Source of the DNA: a virus
DNA length: 21,398 nucleotides
IMG/VR virus record: IMGVR_UViG_3300021963_000760
Span: 1 to 21,398 of that record
Strand: one strand, 5' to 3'
In this document: positions 143 through 6,630 of the stretch, piece by piece
How positions within the stretch are numbered: position 1 is the stretch's first letter
Layout of the letters: every line of letters begins with the position of its first letter
Notes under the pieces: model-generated
What the model was told of the DNA's origin: nothing
Databases searched by the model: none
What the model saw: only the letters and a program-made list of their open reading frames with translations
Made by a program: the position numbers and the translations under genes

Positions 143-399
143 GCATCAAGCGATGGAAACTTGGCTTTAAGCGTTGCAATTGCGTTAAGTGCGAAGCCGC
201 CATTACATTCGAGCAAACCGAGGGAAACTGCGGATGGGTAATGTGGGCAGACCATAAGGATGAAGTCTCACGCCTCAAGGCCGAGGTCGAGCGGCTTCGC
301 AAGGCCGGGGATGCGATGGCTGAAGACCTGATTGGAGAGTTCGGCAGTTATAACAGCGTCTACGATTGGAACGCCGCCAAGAAAGGAGGCCAATCATGA
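139..399 (+). CDS. Small coiled-coil protein, family copy 2, with N-terminal CxxC
   Basis: 86 aa from ATG 139, chosen because it forms an ATGA overlap with the preceding stop at 140-142. An earlier in-frame start at 106 would lie deep inside the previous gene. The N-terminal part is basic and carries C-N-C-V-K-C (residues 13-18), which could bind metal or form a disulphide. The middle contains the family heptad RLKAEVERLRKAGDAM, and the end reads WNAAKKGGQS like its neighbours. The AAAGGAGG run that encodes this tail lies 6 bases before the next ATG and is a good Shine-Dalgarno site. I do not recognise a known family. It is part of an early small-gene operon. Confidence 0.75.
   Translation: MSIKRWKLGFKRCNCVKCEAAITFEQTEGNCGWVMWADHKDEVSRLKAEVERLRKAGDAMAEDLIGEFGSYNSVYDWNAAKKGGQS
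271..318 (+). repeat. Coiled-coil cassette repeat, copy 2
   Basis: Second copy of the direct repeat. It matches copy 3 except for a short difference in the middle, where the plus strand reads GCGGCTTCGC in place of GCGGCTGACC, giving RLRKAG rather than RLTKAG. Confidence 0.9.
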
Positions 400-2733: not shown

Positions 2734-3966
2734 ATGCGTTACCTCTCCGTCTGCTCCGGCATGGAAGCCGCCTCTGTCGCCTGGCACCCGCTCGGCTGGA
2801 CTCCAGTCGGCTTTTCCGAAATCGAACCCTTCCCCTGCGCTATCCTCAAACACCGATTCCCCAACGTACCTAACTATGGATCACTCACCGAATACCAATC
2901 GTGGCCCCTCGAGCGTGGAGCAATCGACCTTCTGGTCGGAGGAACTCCTTGCCAGTCCTTCTCCGTCGCCGGACTCCGCAAAGGACTTACCGACCCACGG
3001 GGCAACCTCGCTCTCACCTTTCTTGGCTTGTCTGACAAACTCAAGCCCCGCTGGATCGTCTGGGAAAACGTCCCCGGTGTCCTGTCTTCGGGAGGAGGGC
3101 GGGACTTTGGTTCCTTCCTCGGGGCGTTGGTCGAACTCGGGTATGGGTTCGCCTACCGAGTGCTGGACGCTCAACACTTCGGAGTTCCCCAGCGTCGTCG
3201 TCGAGTCTTCGTTGTCGCACATCTTGGAGACTGGCGAGCTGCCGCCGAGGTTCTATCTCTCGCCGAAGGCTTGCGCGGGTATCTTGAGACGGGCAACAAA
3301 ACGAGGAAAGGCGTTGCCGCCGATGCTGGAGCAGGCGTTGAGGCAGGCGGCCTCCAGCGGACAGTCGGAACCCTGTGCGCCGACACCCACCCAGGAGCCT
3401 ACTCAGGGCAGGATGCCTACACCGGGCGACTGATTCCTTCCCATTGGCAGGGCGGCGATGTCCACCCGACGCTTAACCAGTCCGCAAAGGGCAGCGGTGG
3501 CGTCGGATCGTCTAATCAGGAACTGTTCAGCCAAGGCGGTACGTACCTTGTGCCGGGTCAGCCAACCCCCTACCGCAAGTCCAAGCGAGCCTGCTCCACG
3601 ACCGACGACGAGCGTGTCGAGGCCGAGGCGTTGGCGGTGACGACTTCAGCCCCGCTGCATTTCGACACCTATAACCAGACGACCTCCAACATCAGCTTCA
3701 CGCTTTCTTGTTCCGCATCTGACGCAAACCATACCGGGACTGTATTCGTTCCGAATATGGCCGTCCGTCGCCTGACGCCTGTCGAGTGCGAACGCCTCCA
3801 AGGCTTCCCCGACAACTGGTCGCGCATCAGCTGGAAGGGCAAGCCCGAGGAGGACTGTCCCGACGGCCCGCGCTACAAGGCCTGCGGAAACTCAATGGCA
3901 GTACCTGTGATGGCTTTCATCGGGAAAAGGATTGAAGAGGTCGAGGCAAAGGGACACCAGTCCTAA
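2734..3966 (+). CDS. Cytosine-C5 DNA methyltransferase
   Basis: 410 aa, complete. It transfers methyl from S-adenosylmethionine to C5 of cytosine in DNA. Motifs in order: motif I-like SVCSGMEAASVAW near the N-terminus, motif IV GGTPCQSFS with catalytic C73, motif VI ENVPG (111-115), motif VIII QRRRRVF (153-159), the variable target-recognition region (about 165-340), motif IX RRLTPVECERLQGFP (from 345), and motif X RYKACGNSMAVPV (380-392). All catalytic residues are intact, so it should be active. A phage orphan methyltransferase like this usually protects virion DNA from host restriction. No partner nuclease is present nearby. The gene opens a new transcription unit after a terminator and contains another reading frame (2876-3433). 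Confidence 0.95.
   Translation: MRYLSVCSGMEAASVAWHPLGWTPVGFSEIEPFPCAILKHRFPNVPNYGSLTEYQSWPLERGAIDLLVGGTPCQSFSVAGLRKGLTDPRGNLALTFLGLSDKLKPRWIVWENVPGVLSSGGGRDFGSFLGALVELGYGFAYRVLDAQHFGVPQRRRRVFVVAHLGDWRAAAEVLSLAEGLRGYLETGNKTRKGVAADAGAGVEAGGLQRTVGTLCADTHPGAYSGQDAYTGRLIPSHWQGGDVHPTLNQSAKGSGGVGSSNQELFSQGGTYLVPGQPTPYRKSKRACSTTDDERVEAEALAVTTSAPLHFDTYNQTTSNISFTLSCSASDANHTGTVFVPNMAVRRLTPVECERLQGFPDNWSRISWKGKPEEDCPDGPRYKACGNSMAVPVMAFIGKRIEEVEAKGHQS
2876..3433 (+). CDS. Overlapping out-of-frame ORF within the methyltransferase gene
   Basis: 185 aa from ATG 2876, read in the +1 frame relative to the methyltransferase and wholly inside it. Residues 125-155 (RFYLSPKACAGILRRATKRG then KALPPMLEQAL), preceded by SLSHILETGELPP, match a protein signature that I recall from many phage genomes, typically encoded next to or overlapping cytosine methyltransferases. 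Other segments (SGKTSP, GGTLVPSSGRWSNSGMGSPT, LNTSEFPS) also read like that family. The N-terminal third is Ser/Pro-rich and low in predicted structure. No Shine-Dalgarno site is seen, so expression may depend on coupling or internal initiation. The function of the family is unknown to me. The overlap is seen directly; the homology is from memory and needs a search. Confidence 0.6.
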   Translation: MDHSPNTNRGPSSVEQSTFWSEELLASPSPSPDSAKDLPTHGATSLSPFLACLTNSSPAGSSGKTSPVSCLREEGGTLVPSSGRWSNSGMGSPTECWTLNTSEFPSVVVESSLSHILETGELPPRFYLSPKACAGILRRATKRGKALPPMLEQALRQAASSGQSEPCAPTPTQEPTQGRMPTPGD

Positions 3967-3973
3967 AGCCACC

Positions 3974-5968
3974 ATGACCACCGAAGATCGCATTTCCGGG
4001 GCGAGAGCCTATCTCGCCAAGCTGCCTGCCGCCGTCGCCGGCCAAGGCGGACACCCCGCCACCTACCGCGCCGCCAGCATTCTGGCCAACGGGTTCGACC
4101 TGCCGTGGTCGGACGCATGGGCCTTGCTTCAGGAGTTCAACGCCCGTTGCTCGCCCCCTTGGTCGGAGAAAGACCTGCGTCACAAGTTGAACGACGCCTA
4201 CGTCAAGCCGCACGAACGCCAGAAGGGATGGCTGTCGAAGGGCAAGGACAACGAACGCAGGGTCGGCGCGAACGGACGCTTCGTCTTCGACCCGAACCGG
4301 GTGGCGGAGCTGGTCGACGTCCAGACGCCGTTCACGACCGCCGACGTGCTGCTGAACTGCTTCAAGGATGAGGACGTCATCTGCATCACGAACGAGGCCG
4401 GCCAGACCGAAGACGGCAAGTGGTTCCCGGCGTCGAAGGGCATCTTTCTTACCCGCGCCGAGTGGATCACCAAGTTCTTCGGCCCCGGAGCCGTGGGGGC
4501 TGCGAAGTTCGCCGGCACGGAGTCGGGGGCTTGGATTCGTATCAACCCCTTCACGCCCGACGACTTCACGGGTACCGACGGTTCGGTGTCGGCCTACCGC
4601 CATGTCTTGGTCGAGTTCGACAAGAAGGCCAAGGACGAGCAGATTGCCATCTTCCAGCAGTCCAACCTGCCCATCAGCCTGCTCGTCGACTCGGGCGGCA
4701 AGTCAGTCCACGCCTGGGTGCGTGTCGACGCCCAGAGCAAGGAGCAATGGGAGGAACGCCGTAATACGGTGTATGACTACCTTTCCGACCACGAACCCGA
4801 CCCGCAGAACAAGAACCCTTCCCGCTGGAGCCGGCTGGGGGGTATCATGCGCGGCGAGAACGAGCAGAAGATCGTGGCGTTCAAGATTGGTTCGCTGGAC
4901 TGGGACGAGTTCATGGCGTGGCGGGAGGGTCAGGACTTCCCCGAGGAGGTCACGACGGACATCCTTGAGAACTACGACGTCCTGAACGACCCGAACACGG
5001 TCATCGGCCACGGACGCTGGTTGCAGAAGGGCGGCTCGCTGCTTATCACCGCGCAGTCCGGCATCGGCAAGTCATCCTTCGCCATGCAGATGGCCATGTC
5101 ATGGGCTTGCGGACGGGAGTTGTTCGGCATCCCGGCGAAGCACCCGCTGAAGATGGGCGTCCTCCAGGCGGAGGGCGACGTCGGCGACATGGCCCAGTCC
5201 TTCCAAGGCGTCATGTCGGGCATGAGGCTCAACAACGACGAGAAGGCGATGGTCAGGCAGCACCTGCATTTCTTCAATGAGTCGTCGAAGCGCGGCTCGG
5301 ACATCATCCAGCTCGCCCGTAAGATCATCGTCCGGCATAAGTTGGACGTCATCGTCCTCGACCCGCTGATGGCCTACATCGGCGGCAACATCAACGACAA
5401 CGTCGACGTGACGAACTTCTGCCGTGGTCTGCTGGAGCCGATGCTGAAGGAGACGGGGTGCATCGCCATCCTGATTCACCACGAAGGCAAGCCGAAGGCC
5501 AAGGAGGTCACGGACGGCCAGACCTTCTCGGACATGATGTACAGCGGGACGGGCGGGGCGGAGTTGGTGAACTACGTCCGTGCCGTCCTGAACATCCGTC
5601 GGGAGTCGAAGGACTTGCCGGTGTTCTCGTTCAACCTGTCGAAGCGCGGCAAGGAAGCCGGGATGCGGACGCCCGACGGCAAGCCTACCCTTGTCCTGAA
5701 ACTGAAACACGCCGACGACCGGGTATTCTGGGAGGTCGCCCCCTTGGCCGGCGGTTTCGAGCTGCTCAAGGTCGGCCAGCAGTATCGTCACTTTGAGTCC
5801 AAGCCCCGCATCAGCCGGGGGGCTTTGCTGGAGGAACTGGTGGCGGATCACAAACTCCAGAGGGACCAGGCGGAAGCCCTGATTAAGGCTATGGTGACCA
5901 ACGGCATCATCGAACCCCGCAAGGTGGGGGCTGCGTTGTACTACCAAGGCACAAAATACGACGCATGA
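3974..5968 (+). CDS. Primase / RepA-like helicase fusion
   Basis: 664 aa from ATG 3974, seven bases after the methyltransferase stop. A TTG at 3932 would overlap that gene. The N-terminal 75 residues resemble the helical PriCT-type domain found in phage primases (GGHPATYRAASILANGF, ending LRHKLNDAY). Residues about 205-300 look like an archaeo-eukaryotic primase core: HVLVEFD (210-216) with acidic metal ligands and SGGKSVH (240-246). Residues 350-600 form a RecA-fold ATPase of the RepA/AAA_25 type: Walker A AQSGIGKSS (360-368), Walker B VIVLDP (459-464), and IHHEGK further on. The C-terminus (about 610-660) looks like a winged helix. It probably primes and unwinds phage DNA. It is coupled by ATGA to the Mom-like gene. 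Confidence 0.85.
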   Translation: MTTEDRISGARAYLAKLPAAVAGQGGHPATYRAASILANGFDLPWSDAWALLQEFNARCSPPWSEKDLRHKLNDAYVKPHERQKGWLSKGKDNERRVGANGRFVFDPNRVAELVDVQTPFTTADVLLNCFKDEDVICITNEAGQTEDGKWFPASKGIFLTRAEWITKFFGPGAVGAAKFAGTESGAWIRINPFTPDDFTGTDGSVSAYRHVLVEFDKKAKDEQIAIFQQSNLPISLLVDSGGKSVHAWVRVDAQSKEQWEERRNTVYDYLSDHEPDPQNKNPSRWSRLGGIMRGENEQKIVAFKIGSLDWDEFMAWREGQDFPEEVTTDILENYDVLNDPNTVIGHGRWLQKGGSLLITAQSGIGKSSFAMQMAMSWACGRELFGIPAKHPLKMGVLQAEGDVGDMAQSFQGVMSGMRLNNDEKAMVRQHLHFFNESSKRGSDIIQLARKIIVRHKLDVIVLDPLMAYIGGNINDNVDVTNFCRGLLEPMLKETGCIAILIHHEGKPKAKEVTDGQTFSDMMYSGTGGAELVNYVRAVLNIRRESKDLPVFSFNLSKRGKEAGMRTPDGKPTLVLKLKHADDRVFWEVAPLAGGFELLKVGQQYRHFESKPRISRGALLEELVADHKLQRDQAEALIKAMVTNGIIEPRKVGAALYYQGTKYDA

Positions 5969-6630
5969 GCATCGTTTCCACCCTGCACGTCCGGCCCATC
6001 GATTATCGGTTGGCGATGGATACCATCGTCAAGAATCATTACCTACATAGGGAATGTTCCTGCTCGGCGGCGTTCGGTCTGTTCACGGACGAGAAAACCA
6101 ACGACGACTTTTTCCAGCAAGGCCGGCTTGTCGGCGTAATCGTCTTTGGCAAGCCGTCTTCCTACACCCTTTGCAATGGCATCTGCGGCGACGACGAGAG
6201 CAAGAACGTCGTGGAGTTCAACCGCCTATGGGTCGAGGACTCGATGCCCAAGAATACCGAAAGTTTCTTTGTCGGCCAAGCCCTTCGCCAATGCCCTTTT
6301 GAAATCATCGTGTCCTTTGCCGATTCCGAGCAGGGTCATGTGGGGTACATCTACCAGGCGACCAACTGGATTTACACGGGGGTAAGCCCCAAGATGAAGT
6401 ACTTCAGGCCGAAGAACGCCTCCGACAACGCCGGGGGTACGGTCTATCGCCGACGTGAACGCATGGCCAAGCAGGAAATCATCGATCAGTTCGGCGAAGA
6501 CATGGTCGAGGAATACTTCAGCAGCATGAAGTATCGTTACATCTACTTCAACTGTTCCAAGACCCGAAAGAAGGAACTGATGAAGAAGCTGAAGTACCCA
6601 GTCCTCCCCTACCCCAAAAAAGCCATCTAG
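5965..6630 (+). CDS. Mom-like DNA modification acyltransferase (GNAT fold)
   Basis: 221 aa, with ATG overlapping the helicase stop. The sequence carries the hallmark segments of the phage Mu Mom family: NHYLHR near the N-terminus, RLVGVIVFGKP, EFNRLWVEDSMPKN (from residue 84), and IVSFADSEQGHVGYIYQATN (115-134). Mom converts adenine in DNA to N6-carbamoylmethyladenine, protecting phage DNA from many restriction enzymes; the family has a GNAT fold. The C-terminal region RRRERMAKQEIIDQFGED followed by a YIYFNCSKTRKKELMKKL segment is typical of phage members. Placement right after primase/helicase and near a cytosine methyltransferase suggests a combined replication and modification unit. Family assignment is strong; the exact chemical product here is inference. 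Confidence 0.88.
   Translation: MSIVSTLHVRPIDYRLAMDTIVKNHYLHRECSCSAAFGLFTDEKTNDDFFQQGRLVGVIVFGKPSSYTLCNGICGDDESKNVVEFNRLWVEDSMPKNTESFFVGQALRQCPFEIIVSFADSEQGHVGYIYQATNWIYTGVSPKMKYFRPKNASDNAGGTVYRRRERMAKQEIIDQFGEDMVEEYFSSMKYRYIYFNCSKTRKKELMKKLKYPVLPYPKKAI

Follow-up and report, generated by a model that had tools for sequence, protein, structure and literature searches.

A gene overlapping phage cytosine methyltransferase genes in the +1 frame, possibly encoding a displaced part of the same enzyme

The window analysed here, a stretch of 21,398 nucleotides from a viral contig, carries a gene for a C5-cytosine methyltransferase (MTase) surrounded by head, tail and replication genes of phage type, and entirely within this gene, in the +1 register relative to it, lies a second open reading frame of 185 codons. 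On the evidence of sequence comparisons this nested frame is a real, non-accidental overlapping gene, although its translation is inferred. What the comparisons establish is the overlap itself, selection specific to the +1 frame, the maintenance of starts in several clades, and homology at the level of profiles; translation, assembly with the MTase and any effect on activity or specificity are all inferences, made without expression or protein data. To our knowledge, same-strand overlapping genes under demonstrable selection have rarely been documented in bacteria and phages; such an overlap is easily missed, because annotation usually retains one frame, and literature searches returned no published description of this one. 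The features of the locus are collected in Table 1.

Table 1. Coordinates of the methyltransferase gene, the nested +1 frame and their parts in the window.
Feature	Position (nt)	Strand	Remarks
Frame-0 C5-cytosine MTase, 410 aa	2734..3966	+	PF00145, E 2.2e-50
Frame-0 motifs: I-VIII, residues ~1-165; IX, ~343-362; X, ~383-397			
Catalytic PCQ of frame-0 MTase	2947-2955	+	
Frame-0 residues 179-338, place of small/target-recognition domain	3268..3747	+	predicted disordered; 5' part overlaps +1 domain
Nested +1-frame ORF (P0001), 185 aa	2876..3433	+	open from ATG 2876 to TGA 3433
Candidate start ATG of +1 ORF, without Shine-Dalgarno	2876..2878	+	kept in 24 of 27 relatives
Alternative start TTG of +1 ORF, GGAGGAGG upstream	3107..3109	+	Shine-Dalgarno score 6
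Conserved +1 domain SLSHILETGELPPRFYLSPKACAGILRRATKRGKALPPMLEQALRQAA, predicted helical mini-domain under +1 selection	3209..3352	+	wobble reversal, pLDDT, hhalign

The methyltransferase and the frame nested in it

A sequence-only reading of this DNA had pointed to the 185-codon frame, which is indeed open throughout, and had quoted RFYLSPKACAGILRR and SLSHILETGELPP from its product, both of which are there as quoted. It had also held the MTase to be intact in its own frame, which is borne out by the match to PF00145 (172 bits, residues 1-401) and by the presence of motifs I to X; with motifs I-VIII including PCQ and ENV, plus IX and X, the frame-0 product satisfies the criterion for a C5 MTase. 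Between motifs VIII and IX, no recognisable small or target-recognition domain (TRD) was found in frame 0 by alignment to M.HhaI or with AlphaFold, a result to which the shallow alignment may contribute. This judgement rests on the lack of alignment to M.HhaI for residues 167-316 (the alignment covers 2-166 and 317-399) and on the disorder predicted for residues 179-338 (pLDDT mostly 25-45), which separate two confident parts, 1-178 and 340-410, of a model whose best PDB match is M.HhaI. The model was built on only 27 sequences, and a variable TRD can be poorly predicted. As had been claimed, the +1 frame overlaps the start of the target-recognition region, its conserved domain covering the 5' part of the place of the small domain; the +1 ORF of the window ends ~26 codons past this domain.

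Homologues of the +1 product are numerous. With tblastn, 129 phage records were matched, including P1 (dmt), Omegavirus mycobacteriophages, and Vibrio, Pseudomonas and gut phages, and there were further matches in 482 stretches in IMG/VR, at least 331 stretches in GTDB genomes and 527 plasmid records, the latter mostly P1-like. At all 330 loci that were fetched, P1 dmt and prophages of many phyla included, the matching frame is open and is +1 of the MTase ORF (L088 was counted as +1 by its main MTase ORF, a small secondary MTase match having given another register). The same register is found in 56 of 56 cases in a divergent second clade (Streptococcus, Lachnospiraceae and Blautia phages, and others) and, wherever both frames can be placed, in the 25 of 200 Pseudomonas genomes that match. 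No stand-alone homologue of the +1 product was found among the 330 loci, the second clade, or these 25 Pseudomonas genomes. Motif IX/X is in frame 0 without stops in the 257 loci where the motif can be placed. The overlap is ancient and widespread, extending over P1, Vibrio, Pseudomonas, Bacillota, mycobacteriophage and environmental viruses. In some Pseudomonas loci (L373-L377) the +1 domain is truncated or altered past YFLSxKA, possibly a natural loss of the second product.

A search of the 185-aa product against phage protein profiles, which had been proposed as a check, matched phrog_16143 (E 1.8e-5, residues 57-131), a family of 139 aa annotated 'DNA methyltransferase' whose profile also matches the +1 products of clade 2. 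The match indicates that such +1 frames have been called as proteins before; the family has no functional description, and the overlap is not noted in it. Sequence searches of Pfam, NCBIfam, PADLOC and the PDB with the +1 product yielded no family. The earlier description of the frame as a conserved phage ORF of unknown function linked to cytosine MTases stands as far as conservation is concerned, given hundreds of loci; 'function unknown' can be made more specific, given the resemblance of the domain to the segment that follows motif VIII in MTases.

Two features of the neighbourhood were also recorded. Positions 5965-6630, closely downstream of the MTase and a primase-like gene, encode a DNA modification protein of Mom-like type (phrog_1384, E 5e-53). 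Positions 2602-2675, immediately before the MTase gene, contain ten consecutive G and an inverted repeat (CCAGTCC...GGACTGG) with T-rich sequence after it, an arrangement resembling a terminator; a similar sequence occurs in locus L028.

Selection along the two frames

A frame at +1 to a conserved gene automatically inherits some of its conservation, and for this reason three selection tests were made. Column diversity, calculated on 86 representatives with <70% identity, follows the ordinary frame-0 pattern in motifs I-VII. Over the last ~48 codons, the frame-0 wobble position, second in the +1 codon, hardly varies at many sites, with no change whatever at those of a number of G, I, R, L and A residues in the domain, while the +1 wobble approaches saturation. 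In this block, residue diversity is 0.43 for +1, versus 0.77 for frame 0 and 0.77 for +2. The +1-specific constraint starts sharply at the SLS of the domain.

In synonymous shuffles of frame 0, the +1 amino-acid diversity of the domain rises to 0.81, compared to 0.35 in the real sequences, with much smaller effects upstream, and a mean of 224 stops appears in the +1 frame where the 86 divergent representatives have none. The stop counts are partly ascertained, since most loci were found via +1 similarity, and the z-scores from the shuffles overstate significance, since related sequences are non-independent.

The wobble-reversal tests are independent of ascertainment by +1 similarity. In the clade of the window (27 sequences), the pairwise differences per codon at frame-0 positions 1/2/3 are 0.096/0.063/0.285 over motifs I-VII and 0.251/0.202/0.498 over motifs IX-X; over the +1 domain they are reversed (0.263/0.174/0.121). 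The same reversal can be seen in P1-like dmt genes, in Bacillota viruses and in a third viral clade, while the small Pseudomonas set is neutral in this respect. Judged by these substitution patterns, the DNA of the domain is evolving as a +1 protein, with frame-0 residues as variable as those of a non-coding frame, and the homologues are not accidental frames, because in the domain it is +1 that is under selection. The loss of synonymous variation in the MTase frame that the sequence-only reading had suggested looking for is strong over the domain in the wobble tests, and the mutual constraint it had anticipated at the start of the target-recognition region is supported by the reversal.

Identity of the +1 domain and comparison with split methyltransferases

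AlphaFold (99 sequences) predicts that the +1 product is disordered at its N-terminus and forms, within residues ~112-164, a confidently modelled helical domain, with pLDDT of 88-97 from about residue 120, so that order and disorder are complementary between the predicted models of the two frames. Foldseek found nothing significant for the +1 model in the PDB, and in a viral library only two weak matches (E 6e-3 and 7e-3), to an ORF of Mycobacterium phage Thibault and to a 521-aa 'cytosine specific methyltransferase'. More informative is the hhalign comparison of the +1 domain profile, built from both clades, with the segment from motif VIII to GNGF of ordinary MTases (Prob 87.5, score 35, versus at most 13.6 for 40 scrambled or reversed decoys), in which SLSxILE..V..KYYLS.K of the +1 product is aligned with the canonical L.xIL....V..KYTL(S/T).K. 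The quoted score was obtained with templates picked by another motif; a run in which templates were chosen by a motif-like pattern was not relied on. Single HMM matches between the +1 domain and frame-0 MTases are marginal (E 0.003-5), several of them falling after motif VIII. The profile homology is remote and based on small alignments; we read it nonetheless as homology, in which case the +1 domain would be the segment that the MTase itself has after motif VIII, moved into a different frame.

The explanation that we consider probable is that the nested frame encodes a separately translated small-domain subunit, giving a two-subunit MTase from the same DNA, with translation and subunit function being inferred. 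A ribosome would start internally on the MTase message and read the +1 frame, producing a chain whose N-terminus, a by-product of the DNA that encodes motifs IV-VIII, is mostly without structure and whose C-terminal part is a helical mini-domain of ~48 residues. This mini-domain would be the displaced counterpart of the segment after motif VIII that opens the small, target-recognising domain, and the frame-0 protein would retain the catalytic large domain (motifs I-VIII and X, and also IX) without a recognisable folded small domain at that place. Most likely the two polypeptides would assemble into one MTase of two subunits, in which part of the small domain is contributed or stabilised by the +1 protein. 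As the +1 protein resembles the DNA-recognition piece of the enzyme, one DNA stretch may encode two halves of one enzyme. By analogy, we propose that the gene in the window works like those of M.AquI and M.EcoHK31I.

The small chain of M.EcoHK31I is said to have been traced in 1995 by Lee et al. to an alternative frame nested in the large-chain gene. The window likewise has a C5 MTase with a second ORF nested in another frame, and under selection. Both M.AquI and M.EcoHK31I occur naturally as C5 MTases made up of two polypeptides; such split enzymes function in trans, as do fragments of M.SssI, M.HhaI and others (PMC3404938). In M.EcoHK31I the larger chain bears motifs I-VIII and X, and only motif IX is on the small chain (PMC3404938), the predicted TRD being on the large one, while the window has motif IX in frame 0 and the post-VIII segment on the +1 chain. 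Since motif IX stays in frame 0, the window was not filed as EcoHK31I-type (motif IX only on the small polypeptide), and its frame-0 protein, unlike that of M.EcoHK31I, might be active alone. M.AquI consists of two polypeptides, divided within the variable region that follows motif VIII (PMC3404938), a position that the window would share, the difference being that the small chain of M.AquI bears motifs IX and X, which the window has in frame 0.

Other loci come closer to these two enzymes. The EcoHK31I-type criterion is met in L441, where the domain and motif IX are in +1 and motif X is in frame 0, as well as in L442 and most of L513-L552. The last two belong to a second family (L442:2246-3181, L513-L552; matching phrog_1008) whose +1 ORFs lie nested within C5 MTases over nearly their full length: frame 0 has motifs I-VIII and X without IX, the +1 ORF of most members carries a motif-IX-like LNPxFxEWLMGWPxGWT, and selection visibly passes from frame 0 to +1 beyond motif VIII, returning to frame 0 at motif X. 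In its placing of motifs I-VIII, IX and X this family agrees with M.EcoHK31I. Related to it, and not to the family of the window, are gp56/gp57 of Paenibacillus phage Arcticfreeze, where a cytosine MTase gene contains the whole of a +1 ORF and both products are annotated as MTase; the passages located in the 48-genome paper on P. larvae phages (PMC6070908) do not discuss the nesting. The AquI-type criterion (a second chain with part of the variable region as well as IX and X) does not hold for the window; only one of 327 loci, L284:2677-3735, extends in +1 that far, with a 353-codon +1 ORF that runs from the domain through the region after it to motifs IX and X, and with I-VIII in the other frame. 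In the mycobacteriophages Broseidon and DarthPhader (L557:1402-2497, L558:1501-2512) the C5 MTase is split: one ORF holds motifs I-VIII, and a second, annotated ORF, at +1 to the first and overlapping its end, holds the IX-X half. L284 and the mycobacteriophage pairs resemble M.AquI more than the window does.

A broader proposition, on which we are evenly divided, is that phage and prophage C5 MTases of this kind, P1 Dmt included, form a large undescribed class in which the catalytic domain is in frame 0 and all or the first part of the TRD is a separate +1 polypeptide, with the selected frame changing in the course of the gene and both products being needed for the enzyme or for its specificity.

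Start sites and alternative readings

A start at ATG 2876 is plausible but not certain. In the 27 relatives the frame-0 codon at this point is TAT in 23, CAT in 1 and TAC in 3, versus an overall TAT:TAC ratio of 126:162; a Shine-Dalgarno sequence was looked for upstream of the ATG in the window, and none was found. The one at GGAGGAGG, before the alternative TTG, may be a by-product, because the same letters encode the GGR motif of frame 0. Bacillota-type loci retain an ATG where the start is expected while frame 0 alternates between Asn, Asp and His (AAT 78, GAT 10, CAT 7), the third base always being T and C-ending codons never occurring. Sequences like Shine-Dalgarno precede the starts in several clades, with AAGGAG before TTG, GAGG in Bacillota, and GGAG before ATGCAA in the +1 ORFs of P1 and Pseudomonas.

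Just after the start, the motif Q[LIVM][TSDN][LFMI][FWYL] is present in 26 of the 86 representatives, versus 0.8 expected from synonymous shuffles, and in several frame-0 contexts, an excess which suggests, as far as such counts allow, that the +1 N-terminus is also under selection. The motif resembles the bacterial clamp-binding consensus QL[SD]LF, and could point to an independent overprinted phage protein (a sliding-clamp adaptor, a regulator or a counter-defence factor, for example) that is translated without being an MTase subunit. We regard this as unlikely, though still worth keeping in view: most representatives lack the motif, the N-terminus in the window reads EQSTFW and not QLxLF and so does not meet the clamp-binding criterion, and the conserved domain resembles an MTase segment, no copy of the domain apart from an MTase having turned up in the loci and genomes searched.

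The sharp onset of constraint at SLS would also be expected from a programmed frameshift to +1 after motif VIII, fusing the N-terminal half of the MTase to the +1 domain. Upstream of the domain, however, no stop interrupts the +1 frame over 82 codons or more in 86 of 86 representatives, an openness which a shift does not need and which compares with 19.6 of 86 expected from synonymous shuffles and with 1 of 31 MTases without the domain (collected with the Pfam model or through similarity to one such MTase). Start codons, moreover, are retained in several clades, a single shift would lose motifs IX-X, and no fixed slippery site is visible, as frame-0 third positions vary at motif VIII. A frameshift appears improbable to us.

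That +1 similarity and openness merely echo the conservation of the MTase is tenable for most of the N-terminal part: the first ~80 columns show no clear +1-specific constraint, with +1 diversity equal to that of +2, and MTases without the domain give +1 matches of E 1e-13 to 1e-16 over this part, which, from its substitution pattern, is probably a by-product chain. As an account of the whole frame it is very hard to sustain, and for nt 3209-3352 it is refuted by the far greater conservation of +1 than of frame 0 and the unchanging wobble sites. Constraint on RNA or DNA, such as a structure or a binding site, could likewise suppress synonymous change, and can practically be discarded, because every third base, the +1 wobble, is near saturation with the +1 residues invariant, a codon-level and not a nucleotide-level pattern.

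If the reading of the +1 product as a small-domain subunit is correct, a possible second subunit has been missing from studies of cytosine MTases such as P1 Dmt, and the specificity of these enzymes would not be readable from one frame. It would also mean that a protein domain can move to another frame instead of another place.
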